Part shown: positions 24,261 through 32,628 of the stretch, piece after piece
Numbering within the stretch: position 1 is the stretch's first letter
Layout: the number at the start of each line of letters is the position of its first letter
Assembly: GCF_030851345.1 (NCBI RefSeq)
Contig: NZ_JALPNU010000027.1
Span: 1-51,155 of the forward strand
Source: Marinifilum sp. D714
GTDB taxonomy: Bacteria > Bacteroidota > Bacteroidia > Bacteroidales > Marinifilaceae
Direction of reading: 5' to 3'
DNA length: 51,155 bases
Notes under the pieces: generated by a model
What the model was told of the DNA's origin: nothing
The model's database searches: none
Seen by the model: the letters and a program-made list of their open reading frames with translations, nothing else
Made by a program: the position numbers and the translations under genes

Positions 24261-26612
24261 TTAATTATTGGTTAAAAGATAGGTTTGAAGATTTTGAATG
24301 AAGGTTTGATTTTCTTCATCTGGATTTAGGAAAAAATAATAGGATAGTATTCTTTCCATTTGTAACAGACTTAAATAAAAGTTGTAACCCGCACTTGCTT
24401 GTTGCTGTTGTGCTTGAAAGTATGCTTGTTGGGCATCAATTAAACTTGTAATTCCGATAGCTCCATTGGAGTAAGAAATTTGCATAAGTTCCAAACTCTC
24501 TTTTGCTGTTTTAGTGGTAAGTTTTGATAATTCGATATTGGTATATAAATTCAATATGGTATACACAATATCATTTACATTTTTCTTAATAAGTGTTTCT
24601 GTATTTTCTTTCTGAATATTTAATTGTTGCTGTTGAATTAAAAACTTTTGTCTGTTTAAACTTCTTTGATTTTGATTAAAAATAGGCAGGCTTAATTGTA
24701 CACCAACATTATAATATCCATCGGGAGCTCCCACAATACCTGTTGGATATCTACTTCCTTTTCCATCTCTTGAAAAAGTATAATTGTATCCTCCTTGCAA
24801 GGCAATGCTTGGAATGAATTTACTTCTTTGATATAGTTTTGCACTTCTCTCTGATGCTTCAATATTAAACTGTAAAGATTTCAGTTCATGAGCATTTTCA
24901 ATAGCAACTGTCTCCAAATATTTTAAAAGTTTACTTCTTAAAATTGGGTCATCAATCAGTGCGATTAAACCCTTGTAATTAAATTGATCTTCTGTATTCT
25001 CATCTACCAAAGAGTGTTTGATGTCAATTTTGTAGTTGATGGGATTATTTAGAAGTTGATTGATGGCATGCATTGCTTGAATAAAGTTGGTGTAAGCATT
25101 AACGATATTTTGAGTTGCGAGTGCCAATTCACTTTTCCAACGCAGAACATCACCTTTTCCGGTTTGTCCAGCCGAGTAATTTTGTTTTGCAATTTCAAAA
25201 TTCTTTCTGGTTACCCTTAGGTTTTCATCATTAATTAGGTAATTGGCCTTTGCAATTAATGCATTGTAAAAAGTAATACCAGCATCTAATATTGCATCCT
25301 TTTCTACGGCGTTATAGTTCTCCTGGCTGGCAGCTGCTAGTGTTTTCTGAATTTTGATATTTCCGCTGGCTTGTTCCGAAAATAGCAGTTGTTCAATATT
25401 AACATTACCACTTGTGGTAAACTCGGGATTCGATCCGTTTGAAACCTTGGCTAAATCAGGATCAATGTGCGAACCAGTTACCGATGTTGTAAGGTTTGGC
25501 AGATATTGACTGTTTGCCAATTTTATCTCTTGTTTAGCCAAATTGATATCAAACTTACTAGCCTTTAAACTTAAATTCTTTTCAAGAAGCTGATAAACAA
25601 AATCATCTAGGTAATACTTCTTTTTGTAAGAGAGCTTATTGGCATTTCCAATAATATTTGTTTTAATTAAAAAACTGTATTTCAGTGGAAAATTAATTTT
25701 AAAAGATGTTTCGATGTTTAAAAGAAGTTTGGTTTCAACATCCAGGTAAATCGGTAAATCCGATAAATCACTTCCCAATACTGCAGCTTCAATGTTTAGA
25801 GCAATTCTCCTAAAAAATTGATCTAACTCATTTATAGGTTGTGTATTAAGGAGTACTCCTAGTGAAGAAAATTCTTCATCTAATGAAGTGAAGGATGGCA
25901 AGTTTCGATTGTTAATCATATCAATCATTCTTTGTCTTTCCTCCTTAGAGAAATATAGGCCTCCGGAAATATATACAGCATCAATATCTTCAAGCTGGCT
26001 GTCTAACTCATCAGCAGATGATATTGAGATAAGTTTGTACTCCGATTTGATCTCGCCAAGAATTTTGTCTAATGTTTCTTTTACAGGGTAGATTTCGGTT
26101 AAATACTCATCTAAAATAATCCCAACTTTCTTGTAGGGATACATTTCTTTGAATTCGGATAAATCTTCTTTGTAAGATTTTGGAGTTAAAATATAGGTCA
26201 AATTCTTAACCTGAGAAGTGTTTTGTCCTTCAGGAAACTCTATAAAATCATCATTAATAACACCAAATAAAATAACTGGTTTCGGAAATGTTTTGTTTTG
26301 AGCAATCACAAAATTGTTAAGGGAACCAAAGGATAATATCAAATCAACATCATCGGAGTTTACTACAGTTTGATAGTTTTCTTTTGCCTTTTCCTGGCTT
26401 AGTTGGTTCATTAAAAAATATTTCTCCTTAAATACAATTGTAGCTTCCTGAGATACAACAGATTTAATTTCAGCTTTCAACCGATTTAAGATGGAGTCTG
26501 TTTCGTGAATATAATCATCACCCAAAATGGCAACCGAGTATTCCTTGGTATTTTGAGCATTTATCCACGATGCATTCAATAAAATAAATGATAGCAGGAT
26601 GAGTTGTTTCAT
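24261..26612 (-). CDS. TolC-family efflux channel fused to an ABC substrate-binding-like domain
   Basis: At 783 residues this is about 300 longer than an ordinary TolC protein. After a signal peptide (1-20), residues 25-320 resemble the periplasmic ABC_sub_bind family (PF04392): DLILSFGSLN (90-99) and PVILFGVIND (112-121), KKVGIILDE (161-169), DAVYISGGLYFS (211-222), LPSFTSLDEEF, and a closing helix before DLPIYL. From about 333 the protein is a normal outer-membrane efflux protein with its two repeats of coiled-coil helices (FDINLAKQEIKLANSQYLP and LQFNIEASERSAKLYQRS). There is no interruption or frameshift. The fusion suggests that the channel senses or captures a ligand in the periplasm. 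It is first in the efflux operon. Confidence 0.85.
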   Translation of the reverse strand: MKQLILLSFILLNASWINAQNTKEYSVAILGDDYIHETDSILNRLKAEIKSVVSQEATIVFKEKYFLMNQLSQEKAKENYQTVVNSDDVDLILSFGSLNNFVIAQNKTFPKPVILFGVINDDFIEFPEGQNTSQVKNLTYILTPKSYKEDLSEFKEMYPYKKVGIILDEYLTEIYPVKETLDKILGEIKSEYKLISISSADELDSQLEDIDAVYISGGLYFSKEERQRMIDMINNRNLPSFTSLDEEFSSLGVLLNTQPINELDQFFRRIALNIEAAVLGSDLSDLPIYLDVETKLLLNIETSFKINFPLKYSFLIKTNIIGNANKLSYKKKYYLDDFVYQLLEKNLSLKASKFDINLAKQEIKLANSQYLPNLTTSVTGSHIDPDLAKVSNGSNPEFTTSGNVNIEQLLFSEQASGNIKIQKTLAAASQENYNAVEKDAILDAGITFYNALIAKANYLINDENLRVTRKNFEIAKQNYSAGQTGKGDVLRWKSELALATQNIVNAYTNFIQAMHAINQLLNNPINYKIDIKHSLVDENTEDQFNYKGLIALIDDPILRSKLLKYLETVAIENAHELKSLQFNIEASERSAKLYQRSKFIPSIALQGGYNYTFSRDGKGSRYPTGIVGAPDGYYNVGVQLSLPIFNQNQRSLNRQKFLIQQQQLNIQKENTETLIKKNVNDIVYTILNLYTNIELSKLTTKTAKESLELMQISYSNGAIGITSLIDAQQAYFQAQQQQASAGYNFYLSLLQMERILSYYFFLNPDEENQTFIQNLQTYLLTNN

Positions 26613-26760: not shown

Positions 26761-26768
26761 TACCTTTG
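26761..26768 (+). promoter_or_regulatory. -7 promoter element for the pheA leader transcript
   Basis: TACCTTTG is an exact TAnnTTTG match 25 bases before the first leader peptide, which predicts a 5' end near 26774. No comparable element precedes the second leader, so both are probably on one transcript. Confidence 0.7.
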
Positions 26769-26792
26769 AACTGTACAAATGATTTACAAACT

Positions 26793-26840
26793 ATGAATAG
26801 AGTTCACACAAACCGATTTTTTTTCTTTTTTAGCATATAG
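26793..26840 (+). CDS. Phenylalanine leader peptide 1
   Basis: This 15-codon gene encodes MNRVHTNRFFFFFSI, with five consecutive Phe codons at 26817-26831 just before the stop. A Phe run in a tiny reading frame directly before an intrinsic terminator and a phenylalanine biosynthesis gene is the hallmark of ribosome-mediated attenuation, as in enteric pheA. It starts about 19 bases after the predicted transcript start and, as usual in this phylum, has no Shine-Dalgarno site. It is too short to be supported without its context, but the context is strong. Confidence 0.85.
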   Translation: MNRVHTNRFFFFFSI

Positions 26841-26886
26841 TGCTGAAGAGGTTTTGTGTGATATAAAATATTAACTGAGCCTTTTT
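26804..26886 (+). promoter_or_regulatory. Attenuator 1: alternative pairings around leader 1
   Basis: Segment 1 (26804-26814, TCACACAAACC, inside the leader) pairs with segment 2 (26850-26861, GGTTTTGTGTGA) with one bulged base. The overlapping segment 26845-26854 (GAAGAGGTTT) can instead pair with the left arm of the terminator (26877-26886) through two G-C and several A-U or G-U pairs. A ribosome stalled on the Phe codons would cover or melt segment 1 and leave segment 2 free to block the terminator. The second pairing is weak, so this half of the model is less certain. Confidence 0.65.
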
Positions 26887-26904
26887 TGAAAGGCTCTTTT
26901 TTTT
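26877..26904 (+). terminator. Intrinsic terminator of attenuator 1
   Basis: GAGCCTTT (26877-26884) and AAAGGCTC (26889-26896) are perfect arms around TTTG, followed by eight T (26897-26904). It stands 36 bases after leader 1 and before leader 2. Confidence 0.9.
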
Positions 26905-26912
26905 ACGATATA

Positions 26913-26993
26913 ATGAGAACCATATTTTCCTTTAGCTTCTTTTTTAGCTTTTTCTTTTTTGGAGACGAGAAGGACAGGATTCTTATGGTTTAA
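26913..26993 (+). CDS. Phenylalanine leader peptide 2
   Basis: This 26-residue frame begins MRTIFSFSFFFSFFFF and contains nine Phe codons between 26925 and 26960, then an ordinary tail GDEKDRILMV. It begins eight bases after the T run of the first terminator and ends 21 bases before the second. Being another Phe-rich frame placed before another terminator, it cannot easily be chance. No separate promoter is visible, so it should be transcribed only when the first terminator is read through. Confidence 0.85.
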   Translation: MRTIFSFSFFFSFFFFGDEKDRILMV

Positions 26994-27021
26994 ATTACAA
27001 ATGCATTAAAAGAGAGTCCTG
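26918..27021 (+). promoter_or_regulatory. Attenuator 2: alternative pairings around leader 2
   Basis: AACCATA (26918-26924) pairs with TATGGTT (26984-26990) and TCCT (26928-26931) with AGGA (26976-26979), closing a hairpin over the Phe codons. The competing segment CAGGATTCT (26975-26983) pairs over nine bases, one of them G-U, with AGAGTCCTG (27013-27021), the left arm of the second terminator. A ribosome paused on the Phe run, which begins at 26925, would sit on the first segment and favour the antiterminator. All three segments are where the classical model needs them. Confidence 0.75.
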
Positions 27022-27042
27022 ATTATTCAGGACTTTTTTTTT
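27015..27042 (+). terminator. Intrinsic terminator of attenuator 2
   Basis: AGTCCTGA (27015-27022) and TCAGGACT (27027-27034) pair perfectly around TTAT, followed by an unbroken T run to 27042. It is 28 bases before pheA. Confidence 0.92.
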
Positions 27043-27070
27043 GAAAAATATCTAATAAAACCAAAATAAA

Positions 27071-27910
27071 ATGGACAAGAGAAGAATTGTTATTCAAGGA
27101 GTGGAAGGTTGTTTCCATCACATTGCGGCAAATGCATATTATGGTGAGGATGTAGAAATTATTCCAGCTGAAAATTTTGCCAAGCTTGTTGACCTTGTTA
27201 ATGATGAAAGTGTTTGCGATGCAGGAATAATGGCCATTGAGAATTCAATAGCTGGAAGTATTTTGCAAAATTATGGATTGTTACAAGATTCAGGTCTTGT
27301 TGTGGAGGGAGAGATCTTTTTACGAGTTAAGCAAAACTTGATGGCATTGCCGGGACAGAAAATTGAGGATTTAAAAGAGGTTCATTCTCATCCAATGGCT
27401 ATCAATCAGTGTAGAGCATTTTTTCGTCAATATCCACACATCAGATTGGTAGAGATGGAAGATACAGCATTAAGTGCTAAAAATATTCGTGATAAAGAAC
27501 TACATGGGGTAGGTGCAATTGCTGGTGATTTACCTGCTAAGCTTTACGATTTAGAGATCTTGGAAGAGGAAATTGAAAGTATCAAGAATAACCAAACTCG
27601 ATTTTTCTTGCTAAAACGACAAAATGATGTTGGTGTTAATGGAGGATTTACAAAGGCTTCGTTATACTTTAGTACGAGTCATGAGCCTGGTAGTTTGTCG
27701 TATATTTTAGATTGTATTGCTCAAGAGGGTATTAACCTTTCTAAAATCCAATCTCATCCAATTCCTGGAGAGAATTGGCAGTATTTCTTTCATGTTGATT
27801 TAGAATTTAAAGCTCCTATGCAATTTAAAAATGCCATGAATATGATTTCACAGAAGGTAAGGGGTATGCAAATTTTAGGGACTTACAATAAGGGTATTGA
27901 GATTCGCTAA
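27071..27910 (+). CDS. pheA: Prephenate dehydratase
   Basis: The enzyme converts prephenate to phenylpyruvate, the committed step to phenylalanine. The 279 residues contain a catalytic domain (about 5-182, with NNQTRFFLL carrying the catalytic T176-R177-F178 and HSHPMAINQC at 105-114) and a C-terminal ACT domain (about 195-272). There is no chorismate mutase domain. In the ACT domain the Phe-binding motifs GALV and ESRP of studied enzymes read GSLS (207-210) and QSHP (227-230). Feedback inhibition may therefore differ. The gene is alone behind tandem attenuators and ends two bases from a convergent gene, so control falls on this single step. Confidence 0.95.
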   Translation: MDKRRIVIQGVEGCFHHIAANAYYGEDVEIIPAENFAKLVDLVNDESVCDAGIMAIENSIAGSILQNYGLLQDSGLVVEGEIFLRVKQNLMALPGQKIEDLKEVHSHPMAINQCRAFFRQYPHIRLVEMEDTALSAKNIRDKELHGVGAIAGDLPAKLYDLEILEEEIESIKNNQTRFFLLKRQNDVGVNGGFTKASLYFSTSHEPGSLSYILDCIAQEGINLSKIQSHPIPGENWQYFFHVDLEFKAPMQFKNAMNMISQKVRGMQILGTYNKGIEIR

Positions 27911-27912
27911 AA

Positions 27913-28176
27913 TCAATTAATTGAATCAAATATCTTATCAATCTGCTTGGCAAGCAAAATGTCTTTTTCTGTAATCCTTCGCTTAGAATGAGTTGTTAAT
28001 GTTACTCTGACATTTTTGTATTTATACAATTTAATGTCAGGGTGATGATCAACTTTTTCCGCATCTTCGGCAATAAGATTGATAAATTTAATGGCATGGG
28101 TAAAATTAGATAATACGTAATTTTTAATCAACTTACTATCTATTTCACTCCAACCTTGGTCCAATAAAATATTCAT
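27913..28176 (-). CDS. 4a-hydroxytetrahydrobiopterin dehydratase (PCD/DCoH)
   Basis: This 87-residue enzyme recycles the 4a-hydroxy-pterin made by aromatic amino acid hydroxylases. The signature is present: E40...DHHPDI with H44, H45 and P46, then Y51, H63 and D72. The usual length is about 90-110 residues. It is encoded tail to tail with pheA, two bases apart. No phenylalanine hydroxylase is in the window, so it may act in hydroxylase-linked recycling elsewhere or in another pterin-related role. No promoter box was found. Confidence 0.92.
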   Translation of the reverse strand: MNILLDQGWSEIDSKLIKNYVLSNFTHAIKFINLIAEDAEKVDHHPDIKLYKYKNVRVTLTTHSKRRITEKDILLAKQIDKIFDSIN

Positions 28177-32250: not shown

Positions 32251-32628
32251 TTATGACTTTTTACAACACTCTTTTTTACAATTAGCATCGCATTTTTTAT
32301 TTGCGTTTGCTTCTTTAGTACATGATTTTTTACATTTTGAGTCACATTTTTTTGCACTAGCTTCTTTTTTAGAACACTCTTTTTTGTCTTTGCAACATGC
32401 TTTCTTCTTAGAGCATTCTTTTTTAGAACAGTCTTTTTTCTTTGAACAGCAAGCTTTTTTATCAGCTTTAGCTTCTTTCTTTACTTTCTTTTTATCTTGT
32501 TCCTGATCCTGATCTACATCTTGAGTAAGTACAACTTCGTTATCAGTAGAAATGCTAATTGGTTGAACTGCGATACTTACCGCGCTAATTGCGAAAACAA
32601 ATAATAGGCTCAATAATAATTTTTTCAT
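32251..32628 (-). CDS. Exported cysteine/lysine-rich low-complexity protein
   Basis: The 125 residues start with a signal peptide (KKLLLSLLFVFAISAVSIA). A short acidic linker (about 27-45, ending DVDQDQEQD) follows, then an 80-residue tail of roughly 33 Lys and 14 Cys with almost no hydrophobic residue. The Cys occur as CC pairs and as CxxxC spacings (KCDSKC, KCDANC) separated by KK. It resembles a metallothionein-like or disulfide-crosslinked secreted protein, but no family can be named. Being exported, its cysteines would be oxidised or bound to metal. It is divergently arranged with a two-component gene pair 180 bases away and has its own terminator. Confidence 0.7.
   Translation of the reverse strand: MKKLLLSLLFVFAISAVSIAVQPISISTDNEVVLTQDVDQDQEQDKKKVKKEAKADKKACCSKKKDCSKKECSKKKACCKDKKECSKKEASAKKCDSKCKKSCTKEANANKKCDANCKKECCKKS

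Follow-up and report, generated by a model that had tools for sequence, protein, structure and literature searches.

Within the window (the whole 51,155-nt stretch of Marinifilum DNA that was analysed), pheA, the gene for prephenate dehydratase (PF00800, E 1e-51), is preceded by two short Phe-rich reading frames, each followed by an intrinsic terminator. The original prediction had described a single gene behind two Phe leaders, and a profile search of the genome agreed, returning this pheA as its single PF00800 match. Its downstream neighbour, a pterin-4a-carbinolamine dehydratase gene (27913–28176, − strand), is convergent with pheA, with 2 nt between the ends. The gene 5′ of the pheA region is likewise on the − strand; with both neighbours on that strand, pheA stands alone. 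Also on the − strand are an outer membrane efflux protein of 783 residues (24261–26612; PF02321, best stretch 335–522), for which no Pfam match was listed over the first ~330 residues, and a 125-residue ORF (32251–32628) with a signal-like start followed by many Lys-Lys-Cys type repeats. For known riboswitches or T-boxes, there were 0 Rfam matches at the gathering score within the window.

On the + strand between 26761 and 27070, the order is one −7 box, leader 1, terminator T1, leader 2 and terminator T2, and pheA follows. When the sequence was read again, the coordinates predicted for the box, both leaders, both terminators and the pairings all held. The features are as follows:

26761–26768, + strand: −7 promoter box TACCTTTG, matching TAnnTTTG
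26793–26840, + strand: leader peptide 1, MNRVHTNRFFFFFSI plus stop (ATG at 26793, stop codon 26838–26840; 15 amino acids, 5 consecutive Phe codons)
26805–26814, + strand: unit 1 segment 1, partner of 26850–26860
26845–26854, + strand: unit 1 segment 2 (GAAGAGGTTT), antiterminator strand against 26877–26886
26877–26904, + strand: terminator T1 (8-bp stem 26877–26896, U-run 26897–26904)
26913–26993, + strand: leader peptide 2, MRTIFSFSFFFSFFFFGDEKDRILMV plus stop (ATG at 26913, stop codon 26991–26993; 26 amino acids, 9 Phe codons)
26919–26924, + strand: unit 2 segment 1, partner of 26984–26989
26975–26983, + strand: unit 2 segment 2 (CAGGATTCT), antiterminator strand against 27013–27021
27013–27042, + strand: terminator T2 (stem 27015–27034, U-run to 27042; 27013–27021 is also the partner of segment 2)
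27071–27910, + strand: pheA, prephenate dehydratase

The promoter box was named by its match to TAnnTTTG, which we take to be the Bacteroidota −7 consensus, and it is the sole such box in the window from 150 nt 5′ of leader 1 to pheA. Judging from its position, transcription would start at about 26774–26775. T1 was also considered as the terminator of the upstream gene and rejected for that role, as the upstream gene is transcribed away from T1.

Conservation was assessed in a set of 17 close, non-identical loci, made up of the window (L001), L031, L003, L002, L004, L035, L008, L009, L005, L006, L007, L010 and L093–L097. L092 was excluded, as its contig stops short of the leaders. The window genome sits with Marinifilum, as PheA is 98% identical in M. 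breve and M. flexuosum. Based on alignments and coordinates, the two Phe-rich frames and the two terminators are all present in 17/17 loci, with 4–5 Phe codons in leader 1 and 7–10 in leader 2; conservation of the Phe runs in relatives was one test that the original prediction had set for itself, and both runs are there. L097 is a qualified case: its leader 2 no longer has the ATG, although a GTG may serve as start codon, and its T2 is imperfect. The −7 box lies 28–32 nt 5′ of the leader-1 ATG in 17/17 loci (L007 has a second box 103 nt before this ATG), and from leader 1 to pheA none of the 17 has a TAnnTTTG box. Between the six Marinifilum and the nine Labilibaculum-like loci, identity is 0.55 in unit 1, 0.67 in unit 2, 0.77 at the start of pheA and 0.35 in the DNA 5′ of the −7 box; the corresponding values against L008 and L009 are 0.70, 0.77, 0.81 and 0.24. 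T1 and leader 2 adjoin in the window, with about 10 nt between them. In the 16 loci other than L097, leader 2 follows the T1 U-run at a distance of 7–11 nt in 11 and of 97–220 nt in 5. The long-gap loci are L010 and L093–L096, and in L094 the stretch between the units resembles, by eye, repeated copies of a related element.

Unit 1 was judged by duplex energies, as the MAFFT alignment shifted the 3′ arm of T1. In the window, the 1:2 duplex has −14.9 kcal/mol, the 2:3 duplex −9.8 kcal/mol and T1 −10.9 kcal/mol. The strong 1:2 pairing that had been predicted for this unit is borne out; the 2:3 pairing, predicted to be weaker, is comparable to T1 and is therefore not weak relative to the terminator with which it competes. 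Across the 17 loci, segment 2 pairs with the 5′ arm of T1 at −7.8 to −12.9 kcal/mol, and T1 itself ranges from −8.2 to −10.9 kcal/mol. The 1:2 hairpin is present, and in part of the relatives it takes in sequence 5′ of the ATG.

In unit 2, both predicted pairings were recovered in the window. The 2:3 pairing is a 9-bp helix of 26975–26983 with 27013–27021, and it keeps 8–9 of 9 pairs in 17/17 loci. The 1:2 pairing has a 6-bp core (26919–26924 with 26984–26989), which is kept in 8/17 loci (5–6 of 6 pairs) and lost in 9/17 (1–3 of 6), so this helix is probably not essential. T2 has 8/8 pairs in 16/17 loci and 6/8 in L097. Over 15 distinct rows of the alignment, 97.0% of cells are paired in the antiterminator helix, against 30–54% when one strand is slid by 1–3 columns; for the T2 stem, the value is 98.3% against 21–59% when slid. 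As to compensatory changes in the stems, L006 has a joint change of three partner bases that preserves both rival helices; the covariation of the antiterminator is modest, being reached by 66/500 shuffles. As base changes in this helix are few, its covariation does not go beyond that of shuffles, and taken by itself it is weak evidence for the pairing.

We folded each unit with the ribosome-covered RNA removed, assuming a 13-nt footprint. With the ribosome stalled at a middle Phe codon, the probability of the antiterminator before the terminator was complete averaged 0.89 in unit 1 and 0.95 in unit 2 (mean of 17 loci), and with the ribosome at the stop codon it fell to 0.12 and 0.00, respectively. 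Shuffled spacers reached the observed switch amplitude in 43/1020 cases for unit 1 and 21/1020 for unit 2. In both units, the last Phe codon begins 13–19 nt ahead of segment 2, whose own start lies at −20 to +9 nt relative to the stop codon. As modelled, both units have the classical attenuator geometry, in which a stalled ribosome frees segment 2 and a ribosome at the stop codon largely covers it. The geometry holds only in part for unit 1 in four loci (the window, L031, L003 and L002), where a ribosome at the stop codon only partly frees the terminator arm and 5–8/60 shuffles match the amplitude. Unit 1 of L009 is weaker (13/60), unit 1 of L097 gave 0.08 on the antiterminator helix picked, and for unit 2 the amplitude was reached by 6/60 shuffles in L006 and 5/60 in L097. 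At equilibrium, the finished T2 beats the antiterminator despite the stalled ribosome (0.93 in the window, mean of 0.54 over the 17 loci), so the unit 2 switch of the window would need kinetic trapping.

The two units differ in these models when no ribosome is present, which raises the possibility that both are attenuators with different jobs, stage 1 being a gate that closes when leader 1 is untranslated and stage 2 the sensor of Phe, so that expression would demand translation capacity and Phe shortage jointly. Without a ribosome, the antiterminator of unit 1 is closed before its terminator is complete (mean 0.05, maximum 0.45), as this division of labour would have it, and that of unit 2 tends to form, with mixed values (mean 0.64, with at least 0.69 in 12/17 loci). 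However, unit 2 of the window behaves like unit 1 (0.01), as it does in L031, L008 and L097 (0.00–0.03), and at equilibrium without a ribosome T2 wins (mean 0.83). The no-ribosome value is also not simply tied to loss of the 1:2 helix, as L035 and L004 keep this helix and give 1.00 and 0.84, and the Phe run of leader 1 is as pure as that of leader 2. Considering these points, we regard separate jobs for the two stages as unlikely.

We asked how widespread this arrangement is by collecting pheA upstream regions from an order sample (295 genomes, pheA found in 139, of which 136 became loci with G193, G202 and G314 left out) and a family sample (56 genomes, pheA found in 35, all of which became loci), along with relatives and named contigs (35 loci). 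After removing five duplicates and six loci with less than 300 nt upstream, the 203 loci gave 192 upstream regions. A fixed detector found a Phe/Tyr leader with a terminator in 166/192 of them: two units in 41, one in 125 and none in 26. Manual assignment of L004 and L097 brings the number with two units to 43/192; the detector undercounts, as in L022, which shows a second leader frame but yielded no second terminator that passed the test. Applied across the 51-kb window, it found both pheA units and one other place (− strand, 19895). Among the 164 whole-genome loci, of which 34 are from the window's own oversampled family, 41 have two units, 103 have one and 20 have none, and two units occur in 10/53 families. 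On the pheA tree, the tandem state requires at least 14 changes, compared to at least 35 in 50 label shuffles; it thus clusters by descent, yet has changed repeatedly. Outside the order, a phylum sample of 69 loci (from 257 genomes with a match) had one unit in 44, none in 24 and two in 1 (L212). In Lentisphaeria and Victivallales MAGs (L052 and L064, which are records outside Bacteroidota, with 44% identity), a Phe/Tyr-rich frame and a terminator precede pheA too.

These counts bear on two further explanations. First, T-rich sequence might yield Phe codons and U-runs by chance, and Phe-like T runs are indeed common in this genome (32 matches to five Phe codons, against 27 for the reversed control pattern). 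The same detector, however, found a unit in 0/960 dinucleotide shuffles and 1/192 antisense regions, and conservation in relatives and a codon content matched to the genes (see below) also speak against chance, to which we give almost no credence. In a scan of 20/32 of the Phe-run matches for other Phe leaders in the genome, there was one weak hit besides the pheA locus (L277, with a frame of 40 residues and a poor U-run), which was not counted, and no His leaders were found in 9/9 loci scanned. Second, unit 2 might be the only working unit, matching the single unit of most sampled loci, with unit 1 a leftover that has a weak terminator. The 125/192 upstream regions with a single detected unit would fit this, as would the short T1 stems (6 pairs) in part of the relatives. 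Against it, the antiterminator and terminator of unit 1 are intact in 17/17 close loci while the DNA 5′ of the promoter has diverged, 10/53 families carry two units, and L097 is the opposite case, in which unit 2 is damaged and unit 1 intact. A relic unit 1 is therefore improbable in our view, distinctly more so than a division of labour.

Two attenuators before one gene would act in parallel rather than in series if a second promoter lay between them. In favour of this are a sigma-70-like pair at 26886–26914 (11/12), as a candidate, and the 97–220 nt between T1 and leader 2 in 5/17 loci. Such pairs occur in the region at shuffle level (49, against a mean of 50.6), and the candidate is not kept in relatives according to the alignments, so an E. 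coli-like promoter between the units was rejected. Of the tandem loci, 26 are outside the Marinifilum clade. The 90 nt before leader 1 contain a −7 box in 14 of these and yielded none in 12, and the 90 nt before leader 2 contain one in 0/26; a TAnnTTTG box does occur between T1 and pheA in 2/26 (L011 and L098), and the antisense control had a box in 14/166. Given also that the 17 close loci have no TAnnTTTG box from leader 1 to pheA, a second promoter is very unlikely.

The codons of the leaders track the gene set that follows: they are (almost) only Phe if pheA is apart, and Phe and Tyr if tyrA or related genes follow. Counting genes that begin no more than 400 nt after pheA, 137 loci have an aminotransferase, tyrA or DAHP synthase gene; all of these loci have Tyr codons, and Tyr makes up a median of 0.43 of their Phe plus Tyr codons. 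In the 27 loci without such genes within 400 nt, the median share is 0 and 16 are without any Tyr. With a 700 nt limit, the Tyr share exceeds 0.2 in 137/139 loci with an aminotransferase, tyrA or DAHP synthase gene and in 0/25 without, of which 16 have no Tyr codon. A tree-corrected test of codons against operon found 5 independent pairs, with 5/5 in agreement in nearly all pairings (p = 0.0625); with five contrasts only, this test cannot reach 0.05, and the uncorrected p of 1.7e-13 overstates. We also considered whether leaders 1 and 2 read different aromatic amino acids and rejected this, as in the 41 detector-tandem loci the two have the same median Tyr share (0.4; Wilcoxon p = 0.74) and are correlated (rho 0.78). 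Both pheA leaders of the window have Phe and no Tyr.

A separate aminotransferase–tyrA–DAHP synthase operon is present in seven close genomes (G000, which is the window's own, and G001, G003, G012, G015, G009 and G011). It has a fourth ORF in 7/7 and a fifth related ORF in 6/7, which we take to be aroB and aroA from their appearance. This operon carries two serial leaders in 7/7 genomes tested (L310–L316), each with Phe, Tyr and one Trp; those of the window genome are MKTVSTYISNFYYFWFYFYPTR and MSNKAFTYRFYFYYFWFNTNRAGCLIP (L310, G000:C21:18600-26400). In 7/7, the stretch from leader 1 to the first gene of the operon has no −7 box. The first terminator was called by script in 7/7, and the second by script in 3/7 (L315 among them) and by eye in L310, L311, L312 and L316. 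This is an internal control: one genome has two operons with two serial pairs of leaders, and the codons of each fit the products. The tandem at this pheA is real, as predicted, and it is not peculiar to this gene or genus, considering the 43/192 pheA regions and the 7/7 tyrA operons.

Overall, the best reading of the locus is the one first proposed, in which one promoter feeds a series of two Phe attenuators: both units are found in 17/17 loci, with a −7 box in front and none between, and the Phe runs are conserved. We put the probability at roughly 0.85 that two ribosome-mediated transcription attenuators, both reading charged tRNA-Phe, act in series to control the lone pheA from one promoter, judging from sequence and folding models. 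Computation shows the layout of the units and how it is conserved, the lone promoter box, helices that exclude each other and leader codons that fit the gene set; that the leaders are translated, that transcription terminates at T1 and T2, that there is a response to Phe and that the two stages multiply is what we infer. In each unit, a ribosome would get to the leader stop codon when Phe is ample, covering segment 2 and allowing the terminator to form. When Phe-tRNA is short, the ribosome would wait at the Phe codons, and the free segment 2 could pair with the 5′ arm of the terminator, letting polymerase read on. As polymerase would have to get past T1 and T2 alike for PheA to be made, the two read-through fractions would multiply, with a drop in leak and a steeper relative response; as arithmetic, independent stages that leak 10% each would leak 1% together. 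Such a switch may give a steeper or wider response and would imply coupling of ribosome and polymerase.

A broader picture is possible and is offered tentatively, since we would sooner bet against it than for it. Serial same-signal attenuation may be a recurrent control of aromatic amino-acid genes in Bacteroidales that has been repeatedly gained or lost. Without a ribosome, stage 1 would close and stage 2 would in many species tend to open, which would make the leader RNA a two-input gate for translation capacity and amino-acid shortage, and the codon set of the leaders might be re-tuned at each operon split.

The pheA tandem would be a natural, many-replicate case of two attenuators in series on one charged tRNA, and removing one stage would allow a test of how attenuation obtains high gain together with low leak. 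Leader-peptide attenuators appear to be spread across the phylum, and each such switch would require a ribosome close behind the polymerase; to our knowledge, polymerase–ribosome coupling has been little studied in Bacteroidota. The match between leader codons and gene set (Phe; Phe and Tyr; Phe, Tyr and Trp) offers a simple readout of what an operon may sense.

Leader-peptide attenuation is a classical mechanism. The enterobacterial pheA leader has a Phe-rich leader peptide with a mutually exclusive antiterminator and intrinsic terminator before pheA, in a single unit. Marinifilum differs in having two units in series, in its phylum and in its promoter type. Against the Rfam model RF01859 (Phe_leader, gathering score 55), unit 1 scores 31.4 bits (26800–26903), below gathering but with Phe_leader as the best family, and unit 2 scores 18.7 bits (26917–27042), also below gathering and with unrelated families scoring higher. 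The match of each unit runs over the whole model (positions 1–125).

Within the phylum, Flavobacterium psychrophilum has been described as having a structured 5′ element before pheA, with hints of leader-peptide attenuation of amino-acid operons (PMC9723704). This element shares the phylum and the pheA upstream region with our locus; as described there, it has no tandem units and comes without an analysis of codons. In Bacteroides thetaiotaomicron, short ORFs resembling leader peptides have been described (PMC7366714). Among the matches listed from openly accessible literature, we found neither a serial attenuator for a single charged tRNA nor a serial attenuator in Bacteroidota. The original prediction had called a serial Phe double attenuator in Bacteroidota undescribed, as far as known. 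For two adjacent charged-tRNA units before a biosynthetic gene, this appears to stand within that literature and among those matches, but single leader-peptide attenuation is hinted at in the phylum (PMC9723704), and a double attenuator for one signal is known from mefA/msrD (PMC10314930).

Several systems share part of the layout. The Salmonella mgtCBR leader RNA, like that of pheA, holds two short ORFs, each governing elongation, and its authors call it a “singular example” (PMC3641672); it responds to ATP and proline through stem-loops unlike intrinsic terminators, whereas both pheA stages read the same amino acid and end in intrinsic terminators. The gammaproteobacterial rimP leader resembles pheA in having two terminators in series before one gene (the second, in tandem, is found with a potential antiterminator in several species), but is without a leader peptide or amino-acid codons as described (PMC2965389). 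Tandem metE riboswitches of Bacillus clausii also put a pair of intrinsic terminators, one after the other, ahead of a single gene, as described in PMC3641672, but bind two different metabolites directly, without leader peptides. In the ErmB leader, two leader peptides are required for induction by one signal (PMC8274638); in this case, unlike pheA, attenuation is translational rather than transcriptional and the signal is a drug. For sensitivity, attenuation models emphasise how many control codons there are and what fraction they make up, and serial stages are not treated in them as described (PMC1183508).

A same-signal parallel is the streptococcal mefA/msrD operon, in which one promoter is followed by two ribosome-mediated transcription attenuators (MefAL and MsrDL) for the same signal (PMC10314930). 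The notion that no same-signal serial attenuator was in print was therefore dropped. This drug-sensing operon is the only same-signal transcriptional precedent that we encountered, and its likeness to pheA, two same-signal attenuators on one transcript, is for pheA drawn from anatomy alone. In mefA/msrD, the signal is a macrolide, mefA lies between the stages and the second stage controls msrD only, whereas the pheA leaders have Phe runs and T1 and leader 2 are adjacent. As msrD is made only past both attenuators, the authors describe a double-lock system against basal expression (PMC10314930), and by analogy the tandem pheA units may serve as a low-leak double lock.
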